Assembly: GCA_019694215.1 (NCBI GenBank)
Contig: JAIBCK010000020.1
Span: forward strand, 1-44,819
Direction: 5' to 3'
DNA from: Thermoflexales bacterium
GTDB taxonomy: Bacteria; Chloroflexota; Anaerolineae; J036; Brachytrichaceae
Length of the DNA: 44,819 bases
Made by a program: the position numbers and the translations under genes
In this document: positions 41,424 to 44,819 of the stretch, piece after piece
Layout of the letters: each line of letters opens with the position of its first letter
Numbering within the stretch: the first letter of the stretch is position 1
The notes under the pieces: generated by a model
Told to the model about the DNA's origin: nothing
What the model saw: only the letters and a program-made list of their open reading frames with translations
The model's database searches: none

Positions 41424-42113
41424 TCAATCGCCCTCTCGCGCGATGCGCTGGAGATAGCGCACCTCGATGGCGATGGTCTCGTCGATGATCCAGCGGAAGA
41501 CGCGCTCGAACAGGTCGGCATTGAGCTGCTGACGCTCGGCGGCGGCGCGGGCGCGGTCGATCACGGCCCGCTCGCGGACGCGGTCGGTCAGGCGCTCGCG
41601 CAGCACGGCCGGCTGGTCGATCAGCTCGCGCAGGTCGGGTTCGGCGCGCAGCTTGACCTCCGCCACAAAACGCCCAACATTCACCCGCTGGAACAGGTTG
41701 AGCAGGATCTCGGCATCCATGTAGGCGGCTTCGCCAAACGTCTGCGCATCCTCGCCCGGCTGGCACAGCGCCCCGATGAACTCAAAGTAGAAGCGCATCA
41801 GGTTCTCGCGGATCGGCAGGTCGACGACGGGCAGTGAGGGCAGCGTGCCGCGCCGCACGATGGGCGACTCGGGCAGGGTCTGGCTGAGCAGCGGTTGTTG
41901 ATCGGGAAAGGAGAAGCGCCCCAGCGAGGCGTGGTAGCGCTCCAACCCTTCCAGCGCAAACTCGAGCAGCGACGTGTCCGGCCGGCCGGCGATGGGGATC
42001 GCCCCCTTGCGATAGATCGTGGCGTTGACGGGGAAGCGCGCGCGATCACGCAGGCGGTTGACGATCAGATCGTTCCACAGGTCGATGCGGCGGCGAAGGT
42101 CCGGCAGGTCCAT
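41424..42113 (-). CDS. Chorismate mutase, eukaryotic (yeast/plant, Aro7-like) type
   Basis: The 229-residue product lines up along its length with yeast Aro7p as I recall it: ARFPVNATIY with SHFPTCPSVY, LEFALEGLERYHASLGRF with LDWALSNLEIAHSRIRRF, VGRFVAEVK with FGKFVAEAK, and DETIAIEVRYLQ with PITKEVEVEYLL. The catalytic set is kept: Arg7, Arg143, Lys154, Glu181, Thr213 and Glu217 match yeast Arg16, Arg157, Lys168, Glu198, Thr242 and Glu246; Asn194 is Asp177. The effector site is changed (yeast Arg75, Ser142, Thr145 are Gly65, Glu128, Tyr131) and the yeast loop around residue 220 is missing, so Tyr/Trp control is probably lost. It would convert chorismate to prephenate. The ATG at 42113 is chosen because CATAAT ends 7 nt before it; an ATG at 42122 overlaps that hexamer. 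Confidence 0.88.
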   Translation of the reverse strand: MDLPDLRRRIDLWNDLIVNRLRDRARFPVNATIYRKGAIPIAGRPDTSLLEFALEGLERYHASLGRFSFPDQQPLLSQTLPESPIVRRGTLPSLPVVDLPIRENLMRFYFEFIGALCQPGEDAQTFGEAAYMDAEILLNLFQRVNVGRFVAEVKLRAEPDLRELIDQPAVLRERLTDRVRERAVIDRARAAAERQQLNADLFERVFRWIIDETIAIEVRYLQRIAREGD

Positions 42114-42120
42114 GGCCGGC

Positions 42121-42126
42121 ATTATG
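42121..42126 (-). promoter_or_regulatory. -10 hexamer of the chorismate mutase gene
   Basis: CATAAT on the minus strand ends 7 nt before the ATG at 42113, predicting a leaderless transcript. It lies in the short gap after the RIO kinase stop, so the mutase can be transcribed independently of the kinase. Confidence 0.55.
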
Positions 42127-42131
42127 GTCGA

Positions 42132-43151
42132 TCATGCCGGCCGTTCCCCGCCCAGCGTTTCCGGCGCGTCCTCGCCATACGCCTCACGCCACAGCGCGCG
42201 CGCCAACCACCCGGGCTCCGGCATATCCGCATAACGCTCGAAGTATTCAAGCACGCGGGTGACATCCCGGCGGAAGAACGTGAAGGCGCGCGGGTTGCGC
42301 CACGGGTTCATGCTCTGCGGGAAGTCGATGATGCGGATCTCGCCCCGGTAGTACAGGATGTTGAAGGCCGAGAGATCGCCGTGGATGATCTCGCAACGCA
42401 GCATGATGCGGATCTGCTCGAGCACGGTGTCATACAGCCGGCGCGCCTCCGCCTTGCCGAGGGTGATGTGATTGAGCGTTGGGGCGGGATCGCCGGGCTC
42501 GCCGTGGAAGTCCATCAGCAGCGCATTGGCGTTGACGCCATACAGCCGCGGCGTGAGGGCGCCGGCCTGCTGCAGACGCCCCAGCGCGCCGGCCTCGTTG
42601 GCCAGCCAGGATTGATGCAGCATCCGAAGGCCAACCGTGGTGCGGTCCGCGACCGCGCGCTGCTCGCGCTTCTTGCGCAGGGCCTTGCCATCCGCGCCGC
42701 GCAGCTCACCGCCGGTGCGATAGGCCGCATCGTTCTTGAGGTTGCGGAACATGCGCGGGCGGAACACCTTGCCGGCCACCCAGCGCGGCCCCAGGCTGGG
42801 GTGGGCGAGGCAGCAGTAGACATTGGCCTCCTTGCCGCCCTTGACCTGCGACAGGATGTCGCTGATCAGGCTGTCATCATAGAAGCCCCCCAGCGATTCG
42901 AGCAGCCAGTTCTCCTCGAACTGCTTGCCCCGAAAGGTGGGCTGGAAGCCGCTCGGGACGAGGTTGAACTCGGCGGCGGCGCGAAAGCGCTGGCGTTCGC
43001 GGTCGGCGATGCGCGTCAGGCGCGGCCGATGGGCCTGATCGCGCGCGGCCCGCACGGCCCGCTGTTCGCGCGCGCCGCGCAGGTAGGTCAGCGCGTCATC
43101 GTTTTCACTTTCAGAATCGGGTTGTGACGTTGGATTGGTTTCGAGATCCAT
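42132..43151 (-). CDS. RIO-type serine/threonine protein kinase
   Basis: The 339-residue product has the compact kinase fold of RIO1 proteins: a flexible nucleotide loop QVKGGKEANVY (about 103-112), Lys128 in VAGKVFRPRMF, the catalytic loop HGDLSAFNIL (His257, Asp259, Asn264) and the metal-binding Asp276 in IIDFPQS. An acidic/basic N-terminal region of about 60 residues precedes it. In eukaryotes and archaea RIO kinases act in small-subunit ribosome maturation; the bacterial role is not established. I start it at the ATG at 43151 because the alternative TTG at 43202 lies in the terminator-like hairpin. Its transcript begins with the leader ORF and hairpins described below. Confidence 0.93.
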   Translation of the reverse strand: MDLETNPTSQPDSESENDDALTYLRGAREQRAVRAARDQAHRPRLTRIADRERQRFRAAAEFNLVPSGFQPTFRGKQFEENWLLESLGGFYDDSLISDILSQVKGGKEANVYCCLAHPSLGPRWVAGKVFRPRMFRNLKNDAAYRTGGELRGADGKALRKKREQRAVADRTTVGLRMLHQSWLANEAGALGRLQQAGALTPRLYGVNANALLMDFHGEPGDPAPTLNHITLGKAEARRLYDTVLEQIRIMLRCEIIHGDLSAFNILYYRGEIRIIDFPQSMNPWRNPRAFTFFRRDVTRVLEYFERYADMPEPGWLARALWREAYGEDAPETLGGERPA

Positions 43152-43162
43152 CTCTTCCGCAT

Positions 43163-43181
43163 CCCGGTGACGGGCACCGGG
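43163..43181 (-). other. Perfect hairpin just before the RIO kinase start
   Basis: CCCGGTG (43163-43169) and CACCGGG (43175-43181) pair perfectly over 7 bp with a 5-nt loop. The stem ends 11 nt before the kinase ATG and could limit ribosome access or protect the 5' end of a processed message. Confidence 0.55.
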
Positions 43182-43184
43182 CAA

Positions 43185-43216
43185 GAAAAAAGCCAGGGAC
43201 AAGCGCGTCCCCGGCT
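43185..43216 (-). terminator. Intrinsic terminator in the leader of the RIO kinase gene
   Basis: On the minus strand AGCCGGGGAC pairs with GTCCCTGGCT (one G-U pair, 10-bp stem, 6-nt loop GCGCTT) and is followed at once by six T. This is the best intrinsic terminator in the window. It lies between the 21-codon leader ORF and the kinase start. Confidence 0.85.
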
Positions 43217-43226
43217 GCGGAAGCCG
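43212..43226 (-). promoter_or_regulatory. Alternative hairpin competing with the leader terminator
   Basis: On the minus strand CGGCT (43222-43226) can pair with AGCCG (43212-43216) around a 5-nt loop. The AGCCG half is also the 5' arm of the terminator stem, so the two folds exclude each other, as an antiterminator would. The stem is short (5 bp), so this is moderate. Confidence 0.5.
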
Positions 43227-43235
43227 ACGGTATCG

Positions 43236-43301
43236 TCAGGCCAGGCAGGCAGGAGGCGCGCACACAACGGCGACAGACAGGATATGAACATTGACGGTCA
43301 T
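43236..43301 (-). CDS. 21-residue leader peptide ORF upstream of the RIO kinase
   Basis: ATG at 43301 has a perfect Shine-Dalgarno AAAGGAGGT (complement of 43307-43315) with 6 nt between GGAGG and the ATG. The peptide begins MTVNVHILSVAVV and ends CAPPACLA. It has a Pro-Pro pair at residues 16-17 and two Cys, but no Phe, Tyr or Trp. The codons for Pro16-Pro17 (CCT CCT) are complementary to its own AGGAGG, so the ribosome site could be masked when no ribosome covers them. Followed by the alternative hairpins and terminator it has the shape of an attenuation leader. It could instead be a free-standing small protein gene ended by that terminator. Confidence 0.7.
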   Translation of the reverse strand: MTVNVHILSVAVVCAPPACLA

Positions 43302-43328
43302 GCGTTACCTCCTTTGATCAGAAAAGAT

Positions 43329-43343
43329 GCCCGTCTTGCGGGC
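43329..43343 (-). other. Hairpin at the 5' end of the RIO leader RNA
   Basis: GCCCG (43329-43333) and CGGGC (43339-43343) pair around a 5-nt loop, only a few bases after the predicted start at about 43347. It may stabilise the leader RNA. Confidence 0.4.
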
Positions 43344-43353
43344 TCGACGCGGG

Positions 43354-43383
43354 AGTATAGCAGCTTTCAGGGTTGGCTGCGAA
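43354..43383 (-). promoter_or_regulatory. Promoter of the RIO kinase leader
   Basis: On the minus strand TATACT (-10, complement of 43354-43359) is preceded after 18 bp by TTCGCA (-35-like, 4 of 6). It overlaps the 3' end of the PPC-domain gene. The predicted start near 43347 gives a leader of about 195 nt before the kinase ATG, unusually long for this window. Confidence 0.6.
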
Positions 43384-44398
43384 CCTCCAGCCGATAGGGC
43401 TGGAGGGGGGCGCTGGCGGCGTACACCCGCACGCGCAAACCATGGGCCGTGGAGGTCGGCGCGACAAAGACGATCTGCTCGACGGCCTGCCCATACGTGT
43501 CCGACTGCGCGACGAGCGCCGCCCCGGTCGTCACCCCGTCATAGAGATACAGGTCCATGTCGGTTGGCGTGGTGAATGGCGTGCCCGCGCTCAGACCGCC
43601 CGAGAGTGTCATCGTGTAGCGCGTCCCGGCCTGCAGCAGCACTGCAAAGAAGTCGTCCCGGTCCTGCACCTGGGTGGTGGAGATGGTCACGCCATACACC
43701 GGTTGGTTGAACCACGGCAGGGGGGCGGCCGAGGCGAGCGGGCTGTTGGGCTCGCGGCAATCGACGCCATACTCGGTGCAGGGGTTGGCCACCTCGACAA
43801 CGTCCAACCGATAAGGCACACCCAAGCCGACCGGTGCGAAGAGATGGATGTAGAGGGCGTATTCGCCCGTCGCCGGCGGGGTGAACAAGAGCCGCTCGCT
43901 GGCTGCGCCAAACGTCGCGGCGCTGAGCAGCGCGCTGCCCCCGCTGCCCGCAAAGAGATACAGGTCCAGATCAGCGGGCGGCGTGAAGGGCGAGCCCATC
44001 GTCAGCCCGCCCGAAAGCGTGATCGAGTATTCGACGCCGGCGACGAGCGTGACGCGAAAGACATCGACGTTGTCGGTGTTGCCGCTGCCCGTGATGACGG
44101 TGCCGAAGAGGCCGCGGTTCAAGGCCGGCAGCGCCGCGCCGCCCGCCACGCTGTCATTGGGTTCGAGGCAGTCCAGGCCGTAACGCTGACAGGCAGGGTT
44201 GTTGTAGACAAGCGGCAGGTAGGCGCGCGGCGTCAGGGCACCGGGGGCAGCGGGCTGCGACGGCGGGTTCACGGCGACGCCGTCGAGCTCGGGCAGGGGC
44301 TTGGGGGCGGGCGGCTCCGCGCGCGCGGCCCGCGGGGCCGGGAGCAACCCCGGCAGTGCAGCGATCAAGGCGACGATGATGATGAAACGTTTGATCAC
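43367..44398 (-). CDS. Exported protein with two tandem PPC-type domains and AYLPLV motif
   Basis: The 343-residue product has a signal peptide (MIKRFIIIVALIAALPGLLP, then an APRAARA cleavage region), a Pro-rich stretch, the motif RAYLPLVYNN, and two homologous repeats of about 120 residues. The repeats start YGLDCLEPNDSVAGGAALP and YGVDCREPNSPLASAAPLP and share YTMTLSGG/YSITLSGG and a DLDLYLF/DMDLYLY strand, the bacterial pre-peptidase C-terminal (PPC) beta-sandwich pattern. No catalytic domain is attached, so it may bind or stabilise partners outside the cell. I use the GTG at 44398, 8 nt after GGAGGGG. The Nudix gene ends 22 bp before it. Confidence 0.82.
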   Translation of the reverse strand: MIKRFIIIVALIAALPGLLPAPRAARAEPPAPKPLPELDGVAVNPPSQPAAPGALTPRAYLPLVYNNPACQRYGLDCLEPNDSVAGGAALPALNRGLFGTVITGSGNTDNVDVFRVTLVAGVEYSITLSGGLTMGSPFTPPADLDLYLFAGSGGSALLSAATFGAASERLLFTPPATGEYALYIHLFAPVGLGVPYRLDVVEVANPCTEYGVDCREPNSPLASAAPLPWFNQPVYGVTISTTQVQDRDDFFAVLLQAGTRYTMTLSGGLSAGTPFTTPTDMDLYLYDGVTTGAALVAQSDTYGQAVEQIVFVAPTSTAHGLRVRVYAASAPLQPYRLEVRSQP

Positions 44399-44420
44399 GC
44401 CCACGGCCCCTCCATGGCAA

Positions 44421-44819
44421 TCAGGTTTGTGTACCCTCGCCGACGGTCTGATCGAAGAAGGCGCGCACGCCATCCTGGCCTGCCCCGAAGACGGCGTGCA
44501 GGCGTGAGGCGTGCCCCGGGTCCAGCCCTGCCGGGAGCGCGGCTTCACCAAACCAACCAAGGTCTAGAATTTCATGCGCGTGGCTGCCACGCCCGAAGCC
44601 GGACAGGTCGGTGGGTGCGCAGACAAACACGAACTGATACAGCTGAAAGGCGGATGTCGTCCCGCACAGGCGCGAGTCCCAGACGCCCGCCAGCGTGTGG
44701 GCGCGGCAACGCACGCCGGTCTCCTCGAACGCTTCGCGTTCCACGCCCTGGGCGGGCGTCTCCCCCACCTCCAGCGCGCCGCCCGGCATCGCCCAACGCT
44801 TATTGTCAGCCCGCTGGAT
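44421..44819 (-). CDS. Nudix hydrolase, 5'-truncated by window edge
   Basis: The frame stays open to the window edge (RADNKRWAMPGG is readable before the first ATG inside the window), so the N-terminus is missing. The Nudix box is complete: GGALEVGETPAQGVEREAFE followed by ETGV, matching Gx5Ex7REUxEExGU. FQLYQFVFVC and ILDLGWFGEAALP are typical of small ADP-ribose or nucleoside-diphosphate-X pyrophosphatases. The substrate is unknown. The PPC-domain gene follows on the same strand after 22 bp and may be co-transcribed. Confidence 0.92.
   Translation of the reverse strand: MQRADNKRWAMPGGALEVGETPAQGVEREAFEETGVRCRAHTLAGVWDSRLCGTTSAFQLYQFVFVCAPTDLSGFGRGSHAHEILDLGWFGEAALPAGLDPGHASRLHAVFGAGQDGVRAFFDQTVGEGTQT

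Follow-up and report, generated by a model that had tools for sequence, protein, structure and literature searches.

The minus strand of the window (the whole 44,819-nt stretch of DNA analysed here) carries, from 43383 to 43183, a promoter-like site, a strong Shine-Dalgarno (SD) sequence, a 21-codon open reading frame (ORF) and an intrinsic terminator, ahead of a gene for a RIO1-family kinase. The features are as follows.

43354..43383, minus strand: promoter-like site TTCGCA-18-TATACT (-35/-10-like, with an extended TG), from the sequence
43299..43313, minus strand: segment 1, comprising the SD AGGAGG, the spacer and the start codon; pairs with segment 2 (1:2 duplex in the window, -18.4 kcal/mol)
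43236..43301, minus strand: upstream ORF MTVNVHILSVAVVCAPPACLA, 21 codons plus TGA (ATG at 43301, TGA at 43236), from the sequence
43251..43263, minus strand: segment 2, GTGCGCGCCTCCT, the ORF end; partner of segment 1 or segment 3 (swap test, duplexes)
43201..43216, minus strand: segment 3, the terminator 5´ arm and loop; competes with segment 1 for segment 2 (2:3 duplex in the window, -19.3 kcal/mol)
43183..43216, minus strand: intrinsic terminator (segments 3:4) with T tract (stem, -19.1 kcal/mol; the stem covaries in relatives)
42132..43151, minus strand: RIO1-family kinase, 339 aa, the gene proposed as controlled (Pfam PF01163)
41424..42122, minus strand: chorismate mutase type II domain protein, 9 nt 3´ of the kinase

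The -10 hexamer, SD, 21-codon ORF and terminator with T tract that the initial annotation had placed before the kinase are all present in the sequence. TTCGCA-18-TATACT is the sole promoter-like site within 41500-44819, where 0.2 are expected, and similar sites are enriched in relatives at a median of 26 nt 5´ of the SD. The SD, AAAGGAGG with its core AGGAGG at 43313-43308, occurs once in the 44.8-kb window, which agrees with its description as the strongest there. CCTCCT at 43256-43251, near the end of the ORF, is complementary to this core, so that the pairing proposed between the CCT CCT codons and the ORF's own SD is available. The encoded peptide does lack Phe, Tyr and Trp, as had been stated. 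The terminator stem spans 43216-43191 and is followed by TTTTTCTT. Between the terminator and the kinase ribosome-binding site lies a 7-bp hairpin, CCCGGTG-CCCGT-CACCGGG (43181-43163, minus strand), which could provide extra translational control of read-through transcripts.

The kinase scores 124.6 bits against PF01163 (RIO1; E = 4.8e-36), above the gathering cut-off of 22, in accordance with the bacterial RIO kinase of the initial annotation. Comparison with solved structures gives RIO1 kinases as the closest chains, and the solved relatives comprise RIO1, RIO2 and RIO3 kinases. Translation likely starts at ATG 43151, as in the homologs. The chorismate mutase type II domain gene is probably in one operon with the kinase, judging by the 9-nt spacing.

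A similarity search with the leader DNA in 60 related genomes returned no match. Because this DNA is too divergent to be matched directly, homologs were reached through the kinase: homologs with 46-54% identity were collected, and the region upstream of each was read. Eight of them share with the window a common layout of AGGAGG, a short spacer, an ORF of 20-24 codons, an anti-SD near the ORF end and a terminator hairpin. The anti-SD is typically RTGCRCCTG and the terminator typically GCCACGGG...CCCGTGGC-T, and the peptides differ. A covariance model built from six leaders (R1) yielded further leaders in the class; on the window it gave no match at default settings and 13.6 bits with the filters off. 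The second model, R2, was built from 28 leaders of relatives with the window excluded. Its single match in the window, at 43328-43185 of the minus strand (35.1 bits, E = 5.4e-7), is the leader. Since a model made from 28 other leaders picks out this site alone, the window leader is not a product of chance. It is a divergent member of the family (35 bits) with an internal loop in its 1:2 helix. The 5´ hairpin reported upstream is present at 43343-43329 (minus strand); it appears private to the window genome and forms no part of the relatives' leaders.

Of 396 genomes sampled from one Chloroflexota class, 116 (~29%) contain matches to R2, spread over 75 of 222 genera. Among 301 sampled genomes of the phylum, every match falls in the same class except for two genomes of one other family, whose leaders (L124 and L125) also lie 5´ of RIO kinases. 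None of the covariance models of Rfam 15 matches the window (E up to 5) or 20 of the relatives (gathering cut-off). Within the window's own genome R2 returned no match; the known kinase-leader copy was missed too, and this blank therefore carries little weight. The rsgA and TetA(P)-like genes of that genome were fetched directly, and neither has a detectable leader. The kinase leader is the only copy found there, by a genome-wide search too insensitive to exclude others.

Two helices compete for the end of the ORF. In an alignment of 103 matches, four of them partial or spurious, 95.1% of cells are paired across the terminator and the helix between the SD and the ORF end. Double changes are observed at 17 of 18 pairs, none of 500 shuffles reaches any of the measures, and sliding the partner by 1-3 columns lowers pairing to 30-55%. 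The 10-pair terminator stem covaries among the relatives. This alignment had been fitted to the structure, and an independent swap test of duplex energies was therefore made, in which the segments of each of 94 non-redundant leaders were paired with each other or with segments exchanged between leaders. The 1:2 helix (SD with ORF end) has a mean energy of -18.5 kcal/mol with its own segments compared with -15.5 kcal/mol with swapped ones (z = -12.4). The 2:3 helix (ORF end with terminator 5´ arm), which lies outside the model, has -20.5 compared with -17.6 kcal/mol (z = -10.9). These z-scores ignore kinship among leaders related by descent, and the control pairs 1:3, 1 with mid-ORF and mid-ORF with 3, which have the same phylogeny, show no own-pair advantage. 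The advantage of 1:2 and 2:3 persists when redundancy is cut to 65 and to 27 leaders. In 102 of 106 leaders, some bases of segment 2 belong to both helices, and 2:3 takes up a median of 80% of the terminator 5´ stem. Thus, 1:2 and 2:3 are mutually exclusive and coevolve. The median energies of the three helices (-18.9, -19.9 and -21.2) are similar, as a switch needs.

The window 2:3 helix is formed by GCGCG 43261-43257 with CGCGC 43207-43203 and by CCTGGC 43245-43240 with GCCGGG 43215-43210. The terminator 5´ arm had been described as shared with a small hairpin at 43226-43212. The arm does have an alternative partner; the one conserved in relatives is the ORF end, not that hairpin. The predicted architecture is that of a 1:2/2:3/3:4 attenuator whose strand 1 is the SD itself.

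The position of the ORF fits this arrangement in the relatives. An ORF of 14-37 codons (median 23), which begins with ATG or rarely GTG at SD distance, is present in 108 of 110 leaders; the L118 leader has a weaker SD and was overlooked by the automatic ORF finder. A stop codon falls within 21 nt after segment 2 in the frame of the ORF in 78 of 93 leaders, versus 16 and 28 in the other frames, and the median distance from stop to terminator is 28 nt. With the stop just past segment 2 and the terminator close by, a ribosome that has reached the stop codon would mask some of segment 2. Two side features accompany some of these leaders. A second short ORF (MERVF...) with its own SD is found between leader and kinase in L006 and L011, approximately 100 nt 5´ of the kinase start. 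In L006, L010, L007 and L118 the leader terminator is succeeded by another GC-rich hairpin with T after it (for example GGCCGCGGG...CCCGCGGCCTTT), in the manner of a tandem terminator.

The sequence features of an attenuator are all observed: a leader ORF that has an SD, a start codon and a stop in frame, helices exclusive with one another and with the terminator, and a terminator before the gene. The leader is probably a ribosome-dependent transcription attenuator and a general sensor of blocked translation, of a family absent from Rfam and from the papers searched. The relatives give strong support to translation-dependent attenuation, the reading of the initial annotation: SD, ORF, SD:anti-SD pairing and a terminator 5´ arm able to pair with the ORF end are all retained in homologous leaders, and loss of the ORF or of the shared arm, which would have spoken against this reading, is not what the relatives display.

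The in silico support covers the ORF, the SD, the exclusive pairings, their coevolution and the downstream genes; the off/on logic of the following model is drawn from the pairings, and from these we infer read-through, its direction and its signal. Transcription would begin just 5´ of the strong SD, and a ribosome would load on the nascent short ORF. During normal translation this ribosome would reach the stop, which comes a few codons after segment 2; with segments 1 and 2 covered or re-paired with each other, 3:4 would form and the kinase would be off. If no ribosome loads, 1:2 would form together with the terminator, and the kinase would again be off. When ribosomes are held on the SD or the first codons, by a drug or another block of initiation or elongation, segment 1 would be covered and segment 2 left free. 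Free segment 2 would then pair with the terminator 5´ arm as 2:3, the terminator would be blocked and the kinase would be made. The leader thus suggests a device by which bacteria of one Chloroflexota class would activate helper functions once protein synthesis is blocked.

The genes that follow the leaders are oriented with them. The first recognised same-strand gene encodes a RIO kinase in 31 of 110 leaders, an ABC exporter in 26, a GNAT acetyltransferase in 23, RsgA in 16, an ABC ATPase in six, an aspartyl-tRNA synthetase (AspRS) in two, an MFS protein in two and an ABC-F protein in one, with none recognised in three. A few kinds of same-strand gene thus cover 107 of 110 leaders, and the first gene lies on the opposite strand in none. 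These classes were assigned with Pfam and NCBIfam on representatives and spread by tblastn, and the labels are approximate. Those ABC ATPases that were run against profiles are DrrA-like. For the MFS proteins examined, TetA(P)/Tet(40) came closest, under the curated cut-off, and the L118 gene is closest to NF000355, a ribosomal-protection-like ABC-F, at 343 bits against a cut-off of 380. Among the relatives, leaders occur ahead of genes of possible inhibitor protection (ABC-F, TetA(P)-like); in the window the gene is that of a RIO kinase. By their predicted products, the leader-associated genes are those of ribosome assembly, translation and drug export. The RsgA, ABC-F, TetA(P)-like efflux and ABC exporter leaders of relatives give strong indirect support to the earlier idea that translation state is sensed.

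Several gene arrangements recur beside the leaders. An MFS gene often follows RIO kinase and RsgA genes, and the latter two occur together in L071 and L082. Operons join RIO kinase, RsgA and TetA(P)-like MFS genes in several orders (L071, L082, L053, L030, L034, L040, L044, L048, L112 and L004), which hints at a functional link. The leaders L042 and L109 lie 5´ of the aspartyl-tRNA synthetase gene, the sole aminoacyl-tRNA synthetase seen. In L028, L054, L058, L073, L043 and others, two or three GNAT acetyltransferase genes stand in tandem behind a single leader.

A rather unlikely alternative to a general sensor of blocked translation is that the leader responds to ribosome supply at initiation (the 30S or initiation-factor state) rather than to elongation drugs, with RsgA closing a ribosome-homeostasis loop. 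Strand 1 is the SD itself, and the 31 RIO kinase and 16 RsgA leaders precede proteins that act on the small subunit in the systems where this is known, RsgA as a small-subunit GTPase. However, drug exporters and acetyltransferases form the other large group and fit external inhibitors better, and in the absence of initiation the pairing of 1:2 should leave the terminator free to fold. We lean towards a class-wide translation-stress regulon in Chloroflexota, built from copies of one cis RNA family with the SD of the upstream ORF (uORF) as its sensing strand, which would place RIO kinases with RsgA, ABC-F and drug exporters in the response to blocked ribosomes.

The peptide itself is not the conserved feature, since segment 2 is read in all three frames: the base that pairs with the last G of AGGAGG falls in frame 0, 1 or 2 in 52, 18 and 23 leaders, respectively. 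Across 94 leaders no amino acid shows strong enrichment or a constant position, and no codon is conserved or strongly enriched. The Pro-Pro and two Cys codons singled out as possible sensors in the window were rejected for this role, given that the peptides differ and segment 2 spans all three frames; here the initial annotation stands in its observation, which is confirmed, and in part of its interpretation.

An arrest peptide that stalls the ribosome through a RAPP-like C-terminus on a specific cue is improbable. Peptides of this type are already described (PMC12992588), many of the leader peptides end in RSAPV or RAPA, and that of the window ends in CAPPACLA. The A-P motif, however, is GCGCCU read in one frame, a C-terminal motif in a fixed frame is not found among the leaders, and the C-termini of other members are VRLP, ARL or CAHL. 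It is highly improbable that the leader is an amino-acid attenuator in which scarce charged tRNA for Pro or Cys stalls the ribosome: the Pro-Pro and two Cys codons of the window ORF and the trp/his kind of architecture speak for it, whereas control codons for a pathway amino acid, as in trp and his leaders, are absent from the set and the downstream genes are not those of biosynthesis. It is barely credible that the terminator simply ends a small protein gene and that the kinase gene behind it is transcribed independently, given the lack of a second promoter-like site, the unconserved peptide, the coevolution of 1:2 and 2:3 and the same-strand tie to few gene families.

Ribosome-dependent attenuators are as a rule examined one gene at a time, and chiefly in Bacillota and Pseudomonadota. 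In the present class, whose regulation is little known, a single RNA family is repeated ahead of a coherent set of genes in ~29% of the genomes sampled. If the attenuator reading is true, the class would have a translation-stress regulon that works without a transcription factor of its own, and the leader would offer both a function to test for bacterial RIO kinases and a search model with which drug-response genes not yet recognised could be flagged. The element is undescribed in the literature searched on Chloroflexi/Anaerolineae attenuators, leader peptides, rsgA, RIO kinase and ABC-F, a search with most subscription papers and all bioRxiv preprints outside its scope.

The leader resembles known systems in part. 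The attenuators of trp and his operons are alike in their four segments, an ORF that overlaps segment 2 with its stop just past it, and a 3:4 terminator; in contrast, the Chloroflexota leader has no run of control codons, and its strand 1 is the SD, so that occupancy of the start codon is the likely input. The antibiotic-induced attenuators of the vmlR type in Bacillota likewise combine a uORF, an anti-antiterminator, an antiterminator and an intrinsic terminator (PMC9226507), and one leader of the present family precedes a ribosome-protection-like ABC-F gene. The antiterminator logic is the same and the layout different: in vmlR a tripeptide uORF lies inside the hairpin SL-1 with its SD unpaired (PMC9226507), whereas in the Chloroflexota leader the SD of the uORF is strand 1. 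The Chloroflexota leader, unlike vmlR, is one RNA family before many kinds of gene. The toiL uORF of E. coli topAI is a multipurpose uORF for several ribosome-targeting drugs, as proposed here, and tetracycline stalls ribosomes at start codons in that study (PMC12121999); the start codon is the ribosome position that the Chloroflexota leader would read. However, toiL acts on topAI translation with Rho-dependent termination, and the Chloroflexota leader has an intrinsic terminator. In the duf1127-1 leader of S. meliloti, which responds to impaired initiation, the ribosome-binding site of the uORF pairs with codons of the same uORF, as here; this pairing leads to induction in a presumably Rho-dependent manner (PMC12218461), whereas in the Chloroflexota leader it should lead to termination. 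The WblC/WhiB7 system of Actinobacteria is likewise a regulon, one of intrinsic resistance to translation-targeting antibiotics; it is governed by a transcription factor in trans (PMC7157823), whereas the proposed Chloroflexota regulon would consist of repeated cis RNA leaders.
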